DNA of 64,000 nt, from the NCBI GenBank assembly GCA_015660815.1, contig JACSDF010000005.1, forward strand, positions 1 to 64,000, written 5' to 3'. The notes below the pieces were generated by a model. The model saw only the letters and a list, made by a program, of their open reading frames with translations, did no database searches and was not told where the DNA came from. Source of the DNA: Actinomycetota bacterium (GTDB lineage: Bacteria; Actinomycetota; Actinomycetes; Nanopelagicales; Nanopelagicaceae). This document shows positions 36,945 to 59,947 of this stretch, piece after piece (position 1 is the stretch's first letter; every line of letters begins with the position of its first letter). Both the position numbers and the translations under genes were made by a program.

Positions 36945-37864
36945 GGTGTTACCTCCACTTGTGCACTTCTAGTACGGGAAACAACTAAAACACAGCCAAT
37001 TAGGATTAATGCGATTCCGGGCAAAATCCCTAAGGGTGGGCGTTGTGCTATCCACCACATGGCAAGAATTGAGCTAACTGGAACTTCAAAAAAAATTATG
37101 AGTGAAACTATTGCAGGCGATACACGTTTAAGTGCGGAATTAAACATTGTGTGTCCAAGAATTTGCGCACCTAAGATCAATCCAATAACAATCCACCATT
37201 CACGGGCTGTGAAATCAAAGAGCTCAACTCCCGAAAAGATTGCCATAGGTAGTGCGCTCATTGCACAGACAAAGTAGCAAATTGTCGTATACGTCGCGGT
37301 TTCAAGGGTTCTTTGCGCTCTTGAACCAGCAATCATGTATAAAGCGGCAAGGGCCGCTGAAATCAATGCTGACACATCGCCAAGAAATGATTTAAAAGAA
37401 ATATTCAAATCCACTCCTGAAATCAGAAGGACACCAGAAAAACTCACGATCATTCCCAGCCAAGCTTTAGATGGAATGTGACCGCCCCCCATTTTTACAA
37501 ACAGCGCTGCGAAGATTGGCTGTAGTGCAACGAGTGCGGTACCGGCGGCAACGGTTGTCCAGCGCATTGCTAGAAAGAATGCAACGAAGTGAAAGGCTAA
37601 AACAATTCCAGCAATGATTGACCACTTAACACCTTCACGATTAGCTCGGTGACGAATGGCGAAGGGGAGAGTCAATAGCGCTCCACCCAAATTTCTCCAA
37701 AAAATTAAGCTCACGATAGGCATAGCGCTCATAGCAATGAGCGGTCCAGATGTTCCAATTCCAATAATCCCAATACCTAAACGAATCAAATCAGGTTTAG
37801 CCGGAACTGCGGTATGGCTATCGCGGATGTGTTCGCTGTTTTGCAATTGTTCGCCCTTAGCCAT
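36941..37864 (-). CDS. EamA/DMT family transporter
   Basis: Ten-TM EamA-like repeats. Confidence 0.9.
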   Translation of the reverse strand: MAKGEQLQNSEHIRDSHTAVPAKPDLIRLGIGIIGIGTSGPLIAMSAMPIVSLIFWRNLGGALLTLPFAIRHRANREGVKWSIIAGIVLAFHFVAFFLAMRWTTVAAGTALVALQPIFAALFVKMGGGHIPSKAWLGMIVSFSGVLLISGVDLNISFKSFLGDVSALISAALAALYMIAGSRAQRTLETATYTTICYFVCAMSALPMAIFSGVELFDFTAREWWIVIGLILGAQILGHTMFNSALKRVSPAIVSLIIFFEVPVSSILAMWWIAQRPPLGILPGIALILIGCVLVVSRTRSAQVEVTP

Positions 37865-37870
37865 GAGAGA

Positions 37871-37880
37871 AAGGTACCCT
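37871..37880. promoter_or_regulatory. overlapping divergent -10 hexamers (AAGGTACCCT)
   Basis: TACCTT on - (37871-37876) 6 nt from EamA ATG; TACCCT on + (37875-37880) 6 nt from MgtE-like ATG. Confidence 0.55.
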
Positions 37881-37886
37881 TAAGCC

Positions 37887-39158
37887 ATGAGCAGCAATCT
37901 CTTAAAACGAGTATTTCTTGCCCGTCTTACAGGCACCGCGGTTTTTGATCCCAACGGTGATCCAGTCGGAAAGGTCAGGGATGCAGTTGCGACGCTTCGG
38001 ACCAATAATCTTCCTCCGCGAATCTTAGGTCTTGTTGTTGAAGTTCCATTACGACGTCGTGTGTTTGTACCTATTACTCGAATCACTTCAATTGAAAGTG
38101 GAGCCGTAGTTATAACAGGGTTACTCAATATGCGTCGATATGAAACCCGTCCCGGAGAAGTTTTAGTTCTTGGAGACATGCTTGACCGTTCAATCACACT
38201 CATCGCATCGAGTGAAGCGGTCCTTGTGGAAGATATGGGTATGGAGCAAAACCAGACCGGTGATTGGTTAATCACGCGAGTCCATATCATGCGTCCAGGA
38301 CGTGGACTTCGCCGCAAAGGTGCTACTTCGACGGTTGCTTGGGATGAAGTCATCGGCTTTGCTCATCCGGAACAAAACCAAGGAGCGGTTAATTTACTTT
38401 TAACTTTGGCAAATCTACGTGCTGCCGATTTGGCCACTGTATTGCAAGACTTACCTGCCAAGCGTCGTGTAGAAGTTGCAGGAGCGCTGGCAGATGATCG
38501 TTTAGCCGATGTATTAGAAGAAATGAATGAAGATGATCGTGTTTCACTCTTAGCCGAACTTGAAGGTGAGCGTGCGGCAGATGTTCTTGGGGAAATGGAT
38601 CCAGATGATGCCGCAGATTTGCTCCGCGAAATCGGTCAAGAACGTGCCGAAGCTCTGCTAAAGCTAATGGAACCAGATGATGCAGAAGATGTTCTACGGC
38701 TAATGAACTATGAAGATTATTCTGCGGGCGGAATGATGACTACTGAACCGATTGTCATGAGTGCCGATTACTCAGTCGCCGATGCCCTCGCCTCCATTCG
38801 GCACCAAGAGATTTCACCTGCTTTGGCTTCACAGATTTTTATTGCCCGCCAACCATTGGAAACGCCAACGGGTCGTTTCATAGGTACGGTTCATTACCAA
38901 CGCTTACTCAGAGAGCCACCTTCGACGTTGCTTGGATCCATTGTGGATACCGACTCTCGTGGTGTGAGGCCAGAGGCATCTCTGCATGAGGTTTCCTCAC
39001 ACCTGGCTAGTTATAACATGCTCTCTTTGCCGGTTGTAGATGCCAATGATCGACTACTTGGCGCAATTACAGTCGATGATGTGCTCGATCATTTACTTCC
39101 TGAAAACTGGCGAAATGATCATCGGGAAAAATCTCCAGTTTCTTATAAGGAGGGGTAA
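37887..39158 (+). CDS. MgtE N-domain/CBS/PRC-barrel protein without channel domain
   Basis: Repeated LADVLEEMNEDDRVSLL...LGEMDPDDAADLLRE...LMEPDDAEDVLRLM, CBS pair, no TM segments. Confidence 0.88.
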   Translation: MSSNLLKRVFLARLTGTAVFDPNGDPVGKVRDAVATLRTNNLPPRILGLVVEVPLRRRVFVPITRITSIESGAVVITGLLNMRRYETRPGEVLVLGDMLDRSITLIASSEAVLVEDMGMEQNQTGDWLITRVHIMRPGRGLRRKGATSTVAWDEVIGFAHPEQNQGAVNLLLTLANLRAADLATVLQDLPAKRRVEVAGALADDRLADVLEEMNEDDRVSLLAELEGERAADVLGEMDPDDAADLLREIGQERAEALLKLMEPDDAEDVLRLMNYEDYSAGGMMTTEPIVMSADYSVADALASIRHQEISPALASQIFIARQPLETPTGRFIGTVHYQRLLREPPSTLLGSIVDTDSRGVRPEASLHEVSSHLASYNMLSLPVVDANDRLLGAITVDDVLDHLLPENWRNDHREKSPVSYKEG

Positions 39159-45309: not shown

Positions 45310-45839
45310 TGCTTGCACGCTTTCAATGCCTCGTCGACAGTATTGGCCCACGTAATTAACTCACGCATTCCTGGCTTGATAAATCTCTCTTCCTCAAGAT
45401 GGAGAATCAGTTCATGTAATGGTCCAAAAATTCCAAATGGGTCAAGAATTACAATCGGCTTATCATGAAATTTTAAATAGCGGCCAACCCATATTTCAAA
45501 GAACTCTTCAAGTGTGCCGGCTCCACCCGGTAAAGTAATAAAGGCATCGGATATATCTGTAATCATCGCCTTACGCTCACCCATCGTTGTGACAATATGT
45601 AATTCATCATTCTCATGATCAGCAAACTCAATTTCAACTAGCGCTTGTGGAATTACGCCGACAGTGCGACCTTTCACTGCACGCGCACCCCGAGAAACTG
45701 CACCCATCATTGAAATATGGCCGCCTCCCGTTACGAGTTCCCACGATAAAGAGCCAATGCCTTCTCCTAGTTGATAGGCCAAATCCACATATTTTGGATC
45801 GATGCTTGGCGATGAGGAACAAAATACTGCGATACGCAT
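45306..45839 (-). CDS. LOG family (TIGR00730-like) protein
   Basis: VFCSSSP...VTGGGHISMMGAVSRGA...LPGGAGTLEEFFE; start MRIAVF. Confidence 0.93.
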   Translation of the reverse strand: MRIAVFCSSSPSIDPKYVDLAYQLGEGIGSLSWELVTGGGHISMMGAVSRGARAVKGRTVGVIPQALVEIEFADHENDELHIVTTMGERKAMITDISDAFITLPGGAGTLEEFFEIWVGRYLKFHDKPIVILDPFGIFGPLHELILHLEEERFIKPGMRELITWANTVDEALKACKQ

Positions 45840-45846
45840 ATGAGAA

Positions 45847-45863
45847 AGGATAGGGGTTAGGCT
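45847..45863. promoter_or_regulatory. divergent -10 hexamers between LOG and dapD
   Basis: TATCCT on - (45847-45852), 7-nt spacer; TAGGCT on + (45858-45863), 6-nt spacer. Confidence 0.55.
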
Positions 45864-45869
45864 TAGCCC

Positions 45870-46787
45870 ATGAACACCATTGCATCTGGCCACGCAATTA
45901 CGACAATGTCGCATGGAAAGCTTTTGGATGCATGGTTTCCAGCTCCAACACTCGCCCCACTCAATCCAGATGTGCCGAGCGAACTACATGCCTTAGTCGG
46001 CAACGATGATGCACGTGAAGTCAGCCGTGAAATCGCAAGCCTTGAAATTAATCTCTCAGTACCACCAGCCTCGGCACTTGATGTCTATCTTCGCTTACAT
46101 CTTCTCTCTCATCGTTTGGTCAAACCACATGGTCTAAGTCTTGATGGAATCTTTGGTCTTCTCAATAACGTAGTGTGGACTTCGGCTGGTCCGTGTGCGG
46201 TTGAGGGCTTTGAACTCACTCGCGCCCGTCTTGGCGCAAAGAATGGGCATGTAACCATCTTTTCTATCGATAAGTTCCCAAGAATGGTGGACTATGTAGT
46301 TCCAAGTGGAGTGCGCATCGCAGATGCCGATCGGGTTCGATTAGGTGCACACCTAGCAGTCGGAACAACCGTAATGCACGAGGGATTCGTTAACTTTAAT
46401 GCCGGAACTTTAGGTACATCAATGGTTGAAGGAAGAATTTCAGCTGGCGTAGTCGTTGGCGATGGCAGCGATGTTGGCGGTGGAGCTTCAATAATGGGCA
46501 CTTTGAGTGGTGGCGGAAAAGAAGTTGTATCGATTGGAGAGAAAACTCTCCTTGGCGCAAACTCGGGTTGTGGAATTTCACTCGGTGACAACTGCATCAT
46601 TGAGGCTGGCACATACATCACTGCTTCTTCAAAATTGCGATTGCCTGATGGGCAGATTGTTAAAGCCGCCGTATTATCCGGTTCGAATAATTTATTATTC
46701 CGGCGTAACTCTTTAGATGGTGCATTAGAAGTGGTAAGTCGAACTGGTACTTGGGGTGGCCTTAACTCAATTCTGCACGCCAACTAA
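45870..46787 (+). CDS. dapD: 2,3,4,5-tetrahydropyridine-2,6-dicarboxylate N-succinyltransferase
   Basis: Actinobacterial DapD-type with hexapeptide repeats, GTLSGGGKEVVSIGEKTLLGANSGCGI. Confidence 0.92.
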   Translation: MNTIASGHAITTMSHGKLLDAWFPAPTLAPLNPDVPSELHALVGNDDAREVSREIASLEINLSVPPASALDVYLRLHLLSHRLVKPHGLSLDGIFGLLNNVVWTSAGPCAVEGFELTRARLGAKNGHVTIFSIDKFPRMVDYVVPSGVRIADADRVRLGAHLAVGTTVMHEGFVNFNAGTLGTSMVEGRISAGVVVGDGSDVGGGASIMGTLSGGGKEVVSIGEKTLLGANSGCGISLGDNCIIEAGTYITASSKLRLPDGQIVKAAVLSGSNNLLFRRNSLDGALEVVSRTGTWGGLNSILHAN

Positions 46788-53481: not shown

Positions 53482-53988
53482 TTAAAACCCAGTCTTTTGA
53501 TTTCGACGAGATATTAAATTTGCACCTTTGGCTTTGGCTTCGGCATTTAAATCAATTAAACCTTGACTCACTTTCGCCGAGATCATGGGGTCTGAAATTC
53601 CTAATATACGTGCAGCAAGAAGTGCGGCATTTTTTGCATTACCAACTCCAACGCTGGCTACGGGAACGCCGGCAGGCATTTGAACGATTGAGAGAAGTGA
53701 ATCCATCCCGTCTAAGTTTTTAAGGGCAATCGGTACACCTATAACTGGCAGGGTTGTAAGTGATGCGACCATGCCTGGTAAGTGCGCTGCGCCACCGGCA
53801 CCGGCAATGATTACCTTAAATCCCTTTGCTGCCGCCTTTTGTGCAAACTCCACCATTTCAAGGGGCATGCGATGAGCAGAGATAACATCGGTTTCAAAAG
53901 AAATCCCCAATGTTTCTAATACTTTAGCGGCATCTTCCATGATGGGCCAATCAGAGTCTGAACCCATGATTATCGCAACATCACTCAT
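53482..53988 (-). CDS. purE: N5-carboxyaminoimidazole ribonucleotide mutase
   Basis: [41 protein letters not shown]. Confidence 0.97.
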
Positions 53989-55093
53989 TAATTTCTCCAC
54001 TCATGTAATCAAGGGCATGCTGAACTTCGTGTGTTAATTCTATGACGTTACTACCCAAAAGAACTACATGGCCAATTTTACGACCTGGGCGGACATCCTT
54101 TTTATAATGATGAAACTTCAGCCCTGGGCATCGTGCCATAAGGTGAAGATACGGTCTATACATATCACTCTTGTCCGATCCCAGAATGTTTCCCATTACT
54201 GCAAAGGGGGCCGACATCGAAGGATCACCTAACGGCAAATCTAAAACTGCACGTAAATGTTGTTCGAACTGTGAGGTGACCGATCCCTCAATCGTCCAGT
54301 GTGCTGAGTTATGCGGACGCATTGCGAGTTCATTGATAAATAACTCATCACCCTTAACAAACATTTCTACTGCCATTACTCCTACAACACCTACTTCTTG
54401 AGCAATCTCTAAAGCCAATTTTTGGGCTTTCGTACTCAGTTCATCACTCATCTGCGGCGCAGGTGTAACCGTTAATGTACAGATTCCATTAACTTGTACG
54501 GTTTGCGTGGGCGCCCATGTAGTTGCCTGCCCATGTGGTGAACGGGCAACCATTACGGCAATTTCATAATCAAACTCTATTAATTCTTCAATTAAGACCT
54601 TGCCGAGCTTTGCAATTACTGCGCTCAATTCACTTTCCGAATCTATTTTCCAGACTCCCCGTCCGTCATATCCGCCAGAAATCGCTTTGGCAATTAGGGG
54701 AAACTCACTTATCCCGGATGCGCTTGTTACAACCCTAGATTTAGGTGCTGGAAATTGGGTTAATTTATTTCGCATCTCCGCTTTATCCTGTGAATAAATG
54801 AATGCGCTTGAACTTGGCCTGACTACAACACCATTGGCTTCAAGGGTTTTTATTACGCTCAATGGGACTAACTCATGCTCAAAAGTTACAACATCACACT
54901 TCTTAGCAAACTCAAGAACGCTAGCCATATCTGCATAATCTCCAATGACATGTTGTGCCACTTGAGCTCCACTGTCATTTGAATCGGCCGCGAATAGGAG
55001 AAGATGAACTCCAAGGGCAGTGGCTGGGCTAACGCTCATTCGGGCGAGTTGCCCTGCGCCAATTATCCCGACTGTAGGAAAAGAATCACTCAC
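53981..55093 (-). CDS. purK: N5-carboxyaminoimidazole ribonucleotide synthase
   Basis: [17 protein letters not shown]-grasp; [13 protein letters not shown]. Confidence 0.96.
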
Positions 55094-55097
55094 TGGA

Positions 55098-55856
55098 TTA
55101 TCGTAGATGAATTATGTCGCCGGCTTGGACATGCCGCCCAGATTCTAAAACTAACTCTCCCCTGTGCGAAATGGAAACCGCCAAACCATTCTCACTATCT
55201 CCATGTGGATACTCCACTCGAACTTCACGCCCAATAGTCGCGCTCAATTTTAAGTAGTCGGCAGAAACCTCATCATTGCCTGCATCCCACGCCAGAAATT
55301 TTTTCTCAAAGTTATTGAGAAATTCAACTAGTAATTGATTGCGAGTCACATCACGTGCTCCCTCAATTAACAAGGAAGTAGCAGTTGGTACCGGAAGCTG
55401 ATGAATCTGCATCCCAACATTTATGCCAACTCCAATTACGATTCCATCATCTGTGGCCTCAGCAATTATGCCTGCAACTTTTTTCTCATGTATGAGGACA
55501 TCATTGGGCCACTTTAACTTTGCTCCAAAATCGGAAAGCACTTGCGCAAGGCTTGTTCCAACTATCAAAGGGATATAACCCCAATCATCAAGAATGCGTT
55601 GTGGTTGTATGTACATAGAAAATAAAAGCGCAGTTCCCTGTGGCGCTTGAAAACTGCGCATTAGGCGGCCGCGCCCAGCGCTTTGATAATCAGCAACAAT
55701 TACATCTCCCGCAGCCGCAGTTCCTGCTCGGGCCAATGTAGCAAGGTCGCTCTGAGTTGATCCAGTGTGAGCAACCACGATTACTCGCCAGTATTGCCCA
55801 ACGGCAGCATTGATAATTGAGGTATCTAATGGCGCGCTTAGCATTTCTGTCTCCAC
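55098..55856 (-). CDS. birA: biotin--[acetyl-CoA-carboxylase] ligase
   Basis: AHTGSTQSDL, QSAGRGRLMRSFQAPQGTAL, KWPNDVLI; GTG 55856 proposed from -10 spacing. Confidence 0.88.
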   Translation of the reverse strand: METEMLSAPLDTSIINAAVGQYWRVIVVAHTGSTQSDLATLARAGTAAAGDVIVADYQSAGRGRLMRSFQAPQGTALLFSMYIQPQRILDDWGYIPLIVGTSLAQVLSDFGAKLKWPNDVLIHEKKVAGIIAEATDDGIVIGVGINVGMQIHQLPVPTATSLLIEGARDVTRNQLLVEFLNNFEKKFLAWDAGNDEVSADYLKLSATIGREVRVEYPHGDSENGLAVSISHRGELVLESGRHVQAGDIIHLR

Positions 55857-55862
55857 GCCTAG

Positions 55863-55869
55863 TACCGTA
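55863..55869. promoter_or_regulatory. candidate symmetric bidirectional -10 (TACCGTA) between birA and pccB
   Basis: TACCGT on + ends 6 nt before pccB ATG; TACGGT on - ends 7 nt before birA GTG. Confidence 0.55.
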
Positions 55870-55874
55870 GGGGT

Positions 55875-57446
55875 ATGAGCCGTGATCTGCATACAACTGC
55901 TGGAAAAATCGAAGATTTACGTGCGCGAGTCGAGGAAGCAGTTCATGCCGGCTCGGCGCGTGCAGTTGAGAAGCAACATGCCAAGGGTAAAAACACTGCC
56001 CGCGAGCGCATTGAGATGCTCGTCGACCACGAGTCATTTACTGAAATCGATGAGTTTGCACGTCACCGTTCAACGCAGTTTGGAATGGAGAAGAATCGAC
56101 CATATGGTGACGGCGTAGTTATTGGCACGGCAACTGTAGATGGCCGCCCTATTGCGCTGTACTCACAGGATTTCACAATTATGGGGGGCTCACTCGGTGA
56201 AGTCCATGCAGAAAAAATCGTAAAGATTGCAGCCTTTGCATTAAAGAGTGGAATCCCCCTTATTGGAATTAATGACTCGGGTGGTGCGCGAATTCAAGAA
56301 GGTGTTGCATCACTATCTGGCTATGGAAAAATCTTTCGACTCAACACTCGCTCTTCAGGTGTAATCCCGCAGATATCGCTAATTCTTGGCCCCTGCGCTG
56401 GCGGCTCGGCATATTCACCTGCCCTAACTGACTTCACTGTCATGGTTAATGAAACCTCACACATGTTTATTACCGGACCTGATGTCATAAAGACGGTCAC
56501 CGGTGAAGAAGTAAATATGGAAGAGCTCGGTGGAGCACGTACACACAACACCAAAACCGGTAACTCTCACTACCTCGCCGAAAACGAGGCCGACGCTATC
56601 GATTATGTAAAAGCACTACTTTCTTATCTGCCCTCGAATAATATGGATAGTGCACCACATCTTCCACCAACTGAATCGTTAGATAAAAAACCTTCAGATT
56701 TCGCGCTCGATTCGTTGATTCCCGATAATACTAATCAACCATATGACATGAAGCTTTTAATTCAAGCACTCGTTGATGAGGCTGAATTTCTCGAAGTCCA
56801 CGCACTTTATGCGCCTAATATAATCGTTGGGTTTGCTCGCATCGAAGGTGAATCAATTGGAATTATTGCTAACCAACCTTCCCAATTAGCAGGCACGCTG
56901 GACATTAACTCAAGTGAAAAGGCTGCGCGCTTCTTGCGTTTCTGCGATGCTTTTAATATTCCCATTCTCACCCTTGTTGATGTCCCGGGGTTTTTACCAG
57001 GAACAGAGCAAGAGTGGGATGGAATCATTCGCCGTGGCGCAAAACTGCTCTATGCCTACGCCGAGGCATCCGTTCCGCTCGTCACGCTGATAACTCGCAA
57101 GGCTTACGGTGGAGCTTTTATCGTCATGGGTTCAAAATATCTTGGCAGTGACATTAACTTTGCCTGGCCTAGTGCAGAAATTGCCGTTATGGGCGCACAA
57201 GGTGCGGTAAATATTCTCTATCGAAAAGAACTGGCCGACTCTAAAGATCCTGTAGGTAAGCGAGCGGAGTTGGTCAATGATTACAACGAATCGCTAGCTA
57301 ATCCATACCTAGCAGCAGAGCGTGGCACAATCGATACTGTAATTGAACCAAATCAATCACGTGCCTACATCACAAAAGCCTTTAGGACTTTGAAAACCAA
57401 GCGAGATACTTTGCCGGCGCGCAAACATGGAAATATTCCACTGTAA
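55875..57446 (+). CDS. pccB: acyl/propionyl-CoA carboxylase beta subunit
   Basis: Carboxyltransferase motifs [32 protein letters not shown]. Confidence 0.95.
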
Positions 57447-57622
57447 TGAAGTACGAAATCGTTAAGGGAGAGCCCACTGTCGATGAGGCAACCGCAATCG
57501 AAATTGCAATGTCTCACCATAAGCGTGAAGAGTTAGAGCCCGTCATTCGAAAGAGTGCATTTGGAGCTCCACAGTTACGGACGCCTTTGAATAAAAATTT
57601 CCGATACGGGAGAGTTAATTAA
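57446..57622 (+). CDS. acyl-CoA carboxylase epsilon subunit-like (58 aa)
   Basis: Manual translation [63 protein letters not shown] overlap with pccB; absent from track. Confidence 0.85.
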   Translation: MKYEIVKGEPTVDEATAIEIAMSHHKREELEPVIRKSAFGAPQLRTPLNKNFRYGRVN

Positions 57623-57629
57623 ATCCTCC

Positions 57630-58232
57630 ATGCCAAAGATCATCCTTGCTTCAGCATCTACTTCGCGTCGGCGTCTATTGGAATCAGCGGGTTTGAAACC
57701 CCTTATTATGATCAGCCACGTTGATGAAGAGAGTGAATTTATTAATGCACTCTCTCCGAGTGATATGGTAATTACTCTAGCAATTACTAAAGCCCACACA
57801 ATTCGTGAGCAAATTGATTTCCCAGCAATTATTATCGGTTGCGATTCAACCTTTGAATTCGATGGAAAATCTCTTGGCAAACCCGGCACTCCTGAAATCG
57901 CTAGAGAACGCGCAAAACGCGTTCAAGGTAACTCAGGACTCTTACATACCGGTCACTGCATAATCGATACAACTAAGGATCGTGAGATTTCTAGCATTGT
58001 TACGACCAAAGTAACTTTTGACACAATGAGTGATGATGAAATCAATGACTACGTCGAAAGTGGTGAACCACTTCATGTTGCCGGCGGTTTTACTCTCGAT
58101 GGTTTCAGTTCACCGTTTATTCCTTCCATCGAAGGTGATTACACAAATGTAGTAGGAATCTCGATGCCATTTCTTCGAAGAGCATTCCTCCAACTCGGAT
58201 ACTCATGGCCTGATGTTAAGGTGATGCAATGA
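57630..58232 (+). CDS. maf: Maf family nucleotide pyrophosphatase
   Basis: [18 protein letters not shown]. Confidence 0.94.
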
Positions 58233-59947
58233 AGCGCGTATTAGTAGCCAACCGAGGTGAAATCGCGGTTCGAGTGATTCGTGCGTGTAAAGATCATGGC
58301 CTTGAAAGCGTTGCCGTTTATTCAGATGAAGATCGCACTGCGATTCATACTGGAATGGCAGACGCGGCCTTTTCCCTTGCCGGAACAACAGCAACTCAAA
58401 CTTATTTAAATATTGAGAAATTAATTGCCGTCGCACTTACTTCTGGTTCTGATGCCGTCCATCCTGGTTATGGATTCCTATCTGAGAATGCGCAGTTTGC
58501 CCAAGCCGTTATTGATGCTGGCTTAATTTGGATTGGGCCTCCACCAGTTGCAATTCGCGCATTGGGTGACAAAGTCTCTGCGCGCAAAATCGCGGCAAAG
58601 GCCGGAGCTCCTTTAGTTGCAGGTACTCAAGATCCCGTTGCCGGGCATGAAGAAGTTACTGCTTTTGCTAAAGAACATGGTCTTCCAGTTGCTATTAAGG
58701 CAGCCCATGGTGGTGGTGGACGGGGTTTGAAAGTTGCGCGAACCATGGAGGAAATTCCAGAGTTATTTGATTCCGCAGTTCGCGAAGCCATCAGTGGATT
58801 TGGTCGGGGTGAGTGTTTTGTAGAGCGCTATTTAGATAAGCCTCGACATGTTGAAACTCAGGTTCTCGTTGATAAACATGGACATGCCGTGGTGATTAGT
58901 ACCCGCGATTGCTCGCTACAGCGCCGCCATCAAAAATTAGTAGAAGAGGCACCTGCACCATTTTTAACCGATGCACAAAATAAAGAGTTGTACCGCGCTA
59001 GCAAAGCAATCATGAAGGAGGCTGGCTATATCGGCGCGGGTACATGCGAATTTCTAGTTGGCCTTGACGGCACAATTTCATTTCTTGAAGTGAATACACG
59101 TCTACAGGTTGAGCATCCCGTCAGTGAAGAAGTCACTGGAATAGATTTAGTACGAGAACAATTTAGAATTGCGATGGGTGAATCATTGGGCTTTGATGAT
59201 CCAATTATTCGAGGCCATTCAATTGAGTTTCGTATCAATGGCGAAGATCCAGGCCGCTCATTTTTGCCAGCCCCTGGGCGAATTACTAAATGGACCACGC
59301 CGAATGGACCCGGAGTGCGCGTGGATGCGGGTTTTAAGAGCGGTGACACAATCGGCGGAAACTTTGACTCACTTCTTGCCAAATTAATTGTTACTGGTGC
59401 AACTCGCATGCAAGCAATTGAACGTGCACGTCGAGCTTTGGCAGAGTTCACAATCGATGGTTTAGCAACGGCCTTGCCGTTTCACCGTGCAATAGTTGAA
59501 GATCCTGCATTTATTGAAGAGTTCAAGATCTACACCAGTTATATTGAAAACGAGTTTGTTAATGATATTCCCGCATTCACCGCAACTGTTGAGCCGTTGC
59601 AAACGCACATGGCCCCTGAACATTTGGTGACTGAGGTAAATGGAAAGCGCTTTGAAATTCTCGTACATGCCCCCAAACCTGTTGTTAAGCGACATCGAGC
59701 CAAGGCAGGCATGTCAGGCGGCTCAAGTGGTTCAGGACTTTCCAGTCCAATGCAGGGCACGGTTGTAAAGATCGCCGTTGAAGTTGGTGCCACGGTTGCA
59801 GCAGGTGATTTGATCATTGTTCTTGAAGCGATGAAGATGGAGCAACCTCTTATGGCCCATAAATCGGGAGTTATCGCTAACCTCACGGCCGTAATCGGAG
59901 CAACGGTTTCAAGTGGCACCACACTCTGTGAGATTATTGACGCATGA
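58229..59947 (+). CDS. acetyl/propionyl-CoA carboxylase alpha (biotin carboxylase-BCCP)
   Basis: [34 protein letters not shown]-terminal biotinyl EAMKMEQPL. Confidence 0.97.

Follow-up and report, generated by a model that had tools for sequence, protein, structure and literature searches.

As the first-pass annotation of this DNA had stated, symmetric -10 elements are known to drive divergent transcription in bacteria. In the published bidirectional promoters, -7T and -11A are reciprocally paired, and the two start sites are most often 18 bp apart; other common spacings are 10 and 23 bp (PMC10268837; PMC12825309). In E. coli, a shared -10 leads to mutual exclusion, but basal activity is in many cases too low for one direction to influence the other (PMC12825309). 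A second comparator is the actinobacterial leaderless gene, for which Zheng 2011 (PMC3160421) and Cortes 2013 (PMC3898074) describe a TANNNT located some 12 nt upstream of the start codon.

The birA/pccB spacer described here would bring together these two known phenomena, the symmetric bidirectional promoter and the leaderless mRNA. It is similar to the Warman/Grainger promoters in having a putative shared symmetric -10, the -7T/-11A pairing, a predicted start spacing of about 18 bp, and two orientations expected to exclude one another. It differs in that those promoters have measured start sites in E. coli and Salmonella, whereas the starts proposed here, which coincide with start codons, are predicted from sequence. 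The start codons imply a spacing of 19 bp (18 bp if leftward transcription begins one base farther upstream), which is within the small variation described for bidirectional promoters (PMC10268837; PMC12825309). Because each start site apparently falls on a start codon, the spacer would be the entire regulatory sequence, with nothing left untranslated. Like the actinobacterial leaderless genes in PMC3160421 and PMC3898074, birA and pccB have TANNNT 6-7 nt before an ATG or GTG, lack a Shine-Dalgarno (SD) sequence, and belong to a setting in which both start codons are used, but those genes are described there one at a time, and here one element is common to two genes. The M. tuberculosis prpD (Rv1130) and Rv1129c genes are likewise divergent neighbors, both with leaderless starts that were mapped (PMC3898074), where those of birA and pccB are predicted.

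The birA/pccB spacer and its surroundings

The window, which is the whole stretch of 64,000 nucleotides that was analysed, comes from a genome that is Candidatus Planktophila or very near to it, the best named PccB match being 99%. The spacer (GCCTAGTACCGTAGGGGT in the window) is bounded by the minus-strand GTG of birA, read from CAC at 55854-55856, and by the pccB ATG at 55875-55877, and the first-pass annotation had placed it, and named both genes, exactly, as judged by sequence and Pfam. That annotation had also taken TACCGTA for a -10 in both directions, 6 nt from the ATG and 7 nt from the GTG, and the window sequence bears this out (Table 1). The TANNNT begins 12 nt before the start codon of pccB and 13 nt before that of birA, in keeping with the roughly 12 nt of actinobacterial leaderless genes, and the single heptamer reads as a -10 on both strands with -7T and -11A reciprocally paired, as in symmetric promoters. 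TANNNTA occurs at 0.13% of window positions. The promoter may be a weak one, since its central -10 bases depart strongly from TATAAT. The CTAG at 55859-55862 (spacer positions -16 to -13), directly 5' of the forward hexamer, is unusually conserved and is perhaps an extended -10.

Table 1. Features of the birA/pccB region, in window coordinates.
Feature	Position	Strand	Evidence or remark
purK and purE, 3' of birA, same strand	53482..55093	-	
birA, biotin protein ligase, predicted leaderless GTG start	55098..55856	-	Pfam
Complete birA/pccB intergenic spacer, 18 bp	55857..55874	.	same length in 118/140 distinct anchored loci
Invariant G, position -13, directly 5' of the + hexamer	55862..55862	+	G in 140/140 loci
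Putative shared symmetric -10 heptamer TACCGTA (TANNNTA)	55863..55869	.	TANNNTA in 118/118 loci with the birA start at this site
Putative -10 hexamer TACCGT for pccB	55863..55868	+	6 nt (AGGGGT) to ATG
Putative -10 hexamer TACGGT for birA	55864..55869 (55869 to 55864)	-	7 nt (ACTAGGC) to GTG
pccB, acyl-CoA carboxylase carboxyltransferase subunit, predicted leaderless ATG start	55875..57446	+	Pfam
58-aa ORF, one-base overlap with pccB stop	57446..57622	+	epsilon-subunit-like by position only
Maf-like protein	57630..58232	+	
Biotin carboxylase with C-terminal biotin-carrier domain	58229..59947	+	PF02786, PF02785, PF00364

The birA product matches BPL_LplA_LipB and BPL_C alone in Pfam, and this search found no N-terminal helix-turn-helix of the kind that marks a BirA repressor (group II). 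PccB matches Carboxyl_trans with an E-value of 8.5e-195, and the 58-aa ORF that follows has no Pfam match. The first-pass annotation had presented the pccB product as the carboxylase substrate of the biotin ligase, and this point needs correction, as PccB is the carboxyltransferase subunit, which is not biotinylated. The biotin-carrier domain is instead on the biotin carboxylase further along, which would be the biotinylation target of BirA and whose gene, in the same plus-strand run, apparently shares an operon with pccB.

Leaderless genes are, on the strength of their promoter signature, routine in this genus. Gene calls in stretches of a complete relative came from a simple ORF and codon-usage script, with start codons as candidates, and TANNNT peaks 12-13 nt before the candidate starts of unit-first genes, with 35 and 20 occurrences versus about 4 at most other offsets; an ATNNNA control is flat across offsets. 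The leaderless signature is carried by 34/259 tandem internal genes versus 44/75 and 36/75 of the genes on the two sides of divergent pairs. At the birA/pccB spacer, an SD-like sequence was found on neither side in any of 118 loci, and this absence, together with the peak at 12-13 nt, agrees with the actinobacterial data in PMC3160421 and PMC3898074.

Conservation of the spacer in the Nanopelagicaceae

Searches with PccB covered 101 genomes at the level of the genus, 121 at that of the family, 61 at that of the order (where every genome returned was again from this family), and 59 at that of the class. After flanks had been retrieved, named relatives added, and duplicates removed, a TANNNT placed exactly 6 nt ahead of the pccB start served to anchor 140 distinct Nanopelagicaceae loci. 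Conservation of the spacer and loss of its symmetry in relatives had both been proposed as checks in the first-pass annotation, and both come out in favor of its reading: birA has an ATG or GTG exactly 18 bp from pccB in 118/140 loci, and all 118 keep TANNNTA, across 35 different spacers in which the central three bases vary (CCG, CCT, CGG). In the other 22 loci the birA start is elsewhere, and the five losses of symmetry among the 140 all belong to these 22, as TAAAGTG four times and TACCGTT once, which amount to two events on the tree of related loci. The symmetric heptamer is still present in 17 of the 22, and so it is not strictly tied to a leaderless birA. We conclude from these patterns that the TANNNTA symmetry between birA and pccB is not due to chance.

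The base that is most informative about direction is A55869 (-6), as A(-11) and T(-7) are common to both hexamers and this is the sole hexamer base specific to the birA direction. On the tree of the 140 loci, the -6 A changes 2 times, only where the birA start has moved, which, once kinship is considered, gives two independent losses in total. The -13 G changes 0 times, other spacer positions outside the fixed bases of the hexamer change 3-23 times, and third codon positions of pccB change 40.6 times on average; the absence of any change at -12, -11, and -7 follows from the anchoring of the loci on TANNNT. A collection of 65 leaderless promoters of the genus, taken from the window and 400 kb of a relative, shows T in 58% and A in 15% directly after the hexamer, and an A is therefore not part of the forward consensus. 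The retained -6 A is thus the strongest argument that the sequence offers for a functional reverse promoter.

Several relatives depart from the common arrangement. Four loci with TAAAGTG, L204, L205, L206, and L211, have lost the symmetry where the birA start has moved and are natural mutants of the putative reverse -10. In L183, L184, and L186, from one genus, the distance between birA and pccB has grown, and a separate TANNNT precedes the start of each gene. In L201, L202, and L203, from one other genus of the family, birA is still predicted to be leaderless at a shared TACCGTA, and in the pccB direction a 14-codon ORF (MNREKSRIGEIEGA) comes after the -10, with a stop that overlaps the start of pccB as ATGA, which suggests a translationally coupled leader peptide. 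A deep ancestry for the 18-bp spacer was considered and rejected: no equivalent was seen outside the family in the class sample, where birA, when detected, is 84-359 nt from pccB.

The birA start and competing explanations

The reading that we favor, with a probability of roughly 80%, is that the spacer carries one symmetric -10 that would drive two leaderless mRNAs outward, both the starts and the bidirectional binding being predicted. It is preferred because of the spacing, the symmetry, the conservation of the start codons, the absence of an SD-like sequence on either side, and a symmetry that is lost only in loci with a moved birA start, and these features uphold the same proposal in the first-pass annotation. 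The literature searched yielded no mapped 5' ends for this organism. Much depends on which codon starts birA, and that annotation had named ATG 55844 and ATG 55892 as starts that would count against it. The codon at 55856 is GTG in 86 and ATG in 32 of the 118 distinct relatives, the two codons interchanging, so that a start codon is there in 118/118. The 55844 site has ATG or GTG in 44/118 loci and the 55892 site in 109/118, the latter being a His codon of pccB. A birA start at GTG 55856 is accordingly supported by the comparison of loci.

An improbable alternative is that the -10 serves pccB only, with a birA promoter inside pccB, translation from ATG 55892 or 55844, and a symmetry that is incidental. 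The high frequency of ATG/GTG at 55892 would suit it, as would the GGAG about 6 nt upstream of ATG 55844 in the window, but the His codon explains the former and the minority occurrence of the latter codon weakens its case. It also leaves aside that relatives retain an ATG or GTG at 55856, at a distance of exactly 7 nt from the reverse hexamer, that GTG-for-ATG swaps there are the behavior of a start codon, and that the -6 A is retained though atypical of one-way leaderless promoters here. In a variant that we regard as quite unlikely, pccB is leaderless and the shared promoter also gives the birA mRNA, whose main translation start would be ATG 55844 after a leader of about 12 nt. The window does have GGAGACAGAA-ATG downstream of the same start site, yet most relatives are missing this ATG, and all 118 loci have the start codon at 55856.

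The conserved block could also be a transcription-factor operator between two ordinary promoters, and its core, CTAGTACCGTA, is indeed longer than a -10, with positions -16 to -14 also fairly conserved. Against this, the three center bases vary, and invariance or near-invariance is confined to -13, -12, -11, -7, and -6, a pattern that is typical of a -10; there is no space for two further promoters that would yield these starts, and the BirA encoded here is without a DNA-binding domain detectable by Pfam. We consider this the least credible of the explanations, with very little probability.

According to the preferred reading of one shared -10, the spacer would act as a minimal promoter of the housekeeping-sigma type that works in both directions. 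RNA polymerase would bind TANNNTA in either orientation, because A(-11) and T(-7) pair with each other's counterparts on the opposite strand, and transcription would begin rightward at the A of the pccB ATG and leftward at the first G of the GTG of birA. Both mRNAs would be leaderless and translated straight from the 5'-terminal start codon. The two polymerase orientations would be mutually exclusive, and therefore both genes would be initiated from one shared site. The coupling of birA and pccB that the first-pass annotation had proposed would be no more than a possible consequence of this sharing.

Other compact divergent pairs

The 1.59 Mb window genome has 8 occurrences of start-TANNNTA-start in the birA/pccB register, a raw count that is not above the controls (11 for the reversed pattern and 17 for ATNNNAT), but 4/8 are between two divergent long ORFs (at least 60 aa) versus 0/17 of the ATNNNAT controls. 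The four pairs are birA/pccB, crp/nth, nucleoside hydrolase/ribokinase-family kinase, and mobA-like/phosphoesterase-like, where crp, nth, the hydrolase, and the kinase were named by Pfam and the last pair by eye only. The same four share the register in the relative G082, and crp/nth has the exact register in 23/30 genomes of the genus, with a 19-bp version in several others. The sequence features of the extreme minimal leaderless-leaderless case, as the first-pass annotation had called it, hold, but birA/pccB is not unique: three other divergent pairs have its register, and other registers recur too.

Of the 75 divergent pairs in 800 kb of G082, 20 have an apparently leaderless gene on each side within 60 nt, versus 0-1 with ten control motifs, and at other pairs the -10s overlap by a TA dinucleotide, with a start spacing of 22-24, or sit side by side. 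The spacings of 22-24 nt at other pairs in the genus fit the 23-bp class of bidirectional promoters. For example, the divergent pair at 37862-37889 of the window (CATGAGAGAAAGGTACCCTTAAGCCATG), apparently leaderless on both sides, has hexamers TACCTT and TACCCT that overlap by TA and a start spacing of 22 nt, and another at 45837-45872, also apparently leaderless on both sides, has side-by-side -10s (TATCCT/TAGGCT) and a spacing of 30 nt. A special pairing of leaderless genes was rejected, with 24 pairs leaderless on both sides versus 21 expected from the marginals. As the two sides thus look independent, most such pairs are explained by compaction together with a high proportion of leaderless genes, and it is the recurring shared register that stands out.

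It is a tentative proposal, held at somewhat less than even odds, that the Nanopelagicaceae have a recurring class of divergent pairs in which start codons are transcription start sites and polymerase competition links the two genes. The entire intergenic DNA of such a pair would consist of two discriminators and a single -10 that is either symmetric or overlapping, and each start codon would also be part of the opposite promoter. If so, the output of biotin ligase would be tied to the carboxylase operon at birA/pccB. If the start sites are confirmed, this would be near the smallest possible divergent regulatory region, with one -10 for two genes, no untranslated sequence, and conservation throughout a family of abundant freshwater bacteria, and the natural pairs, including the lineages that have lost the symmetry, would be suited to asking whether sharing a -10 couples genes or saves space in a streamlined genome.
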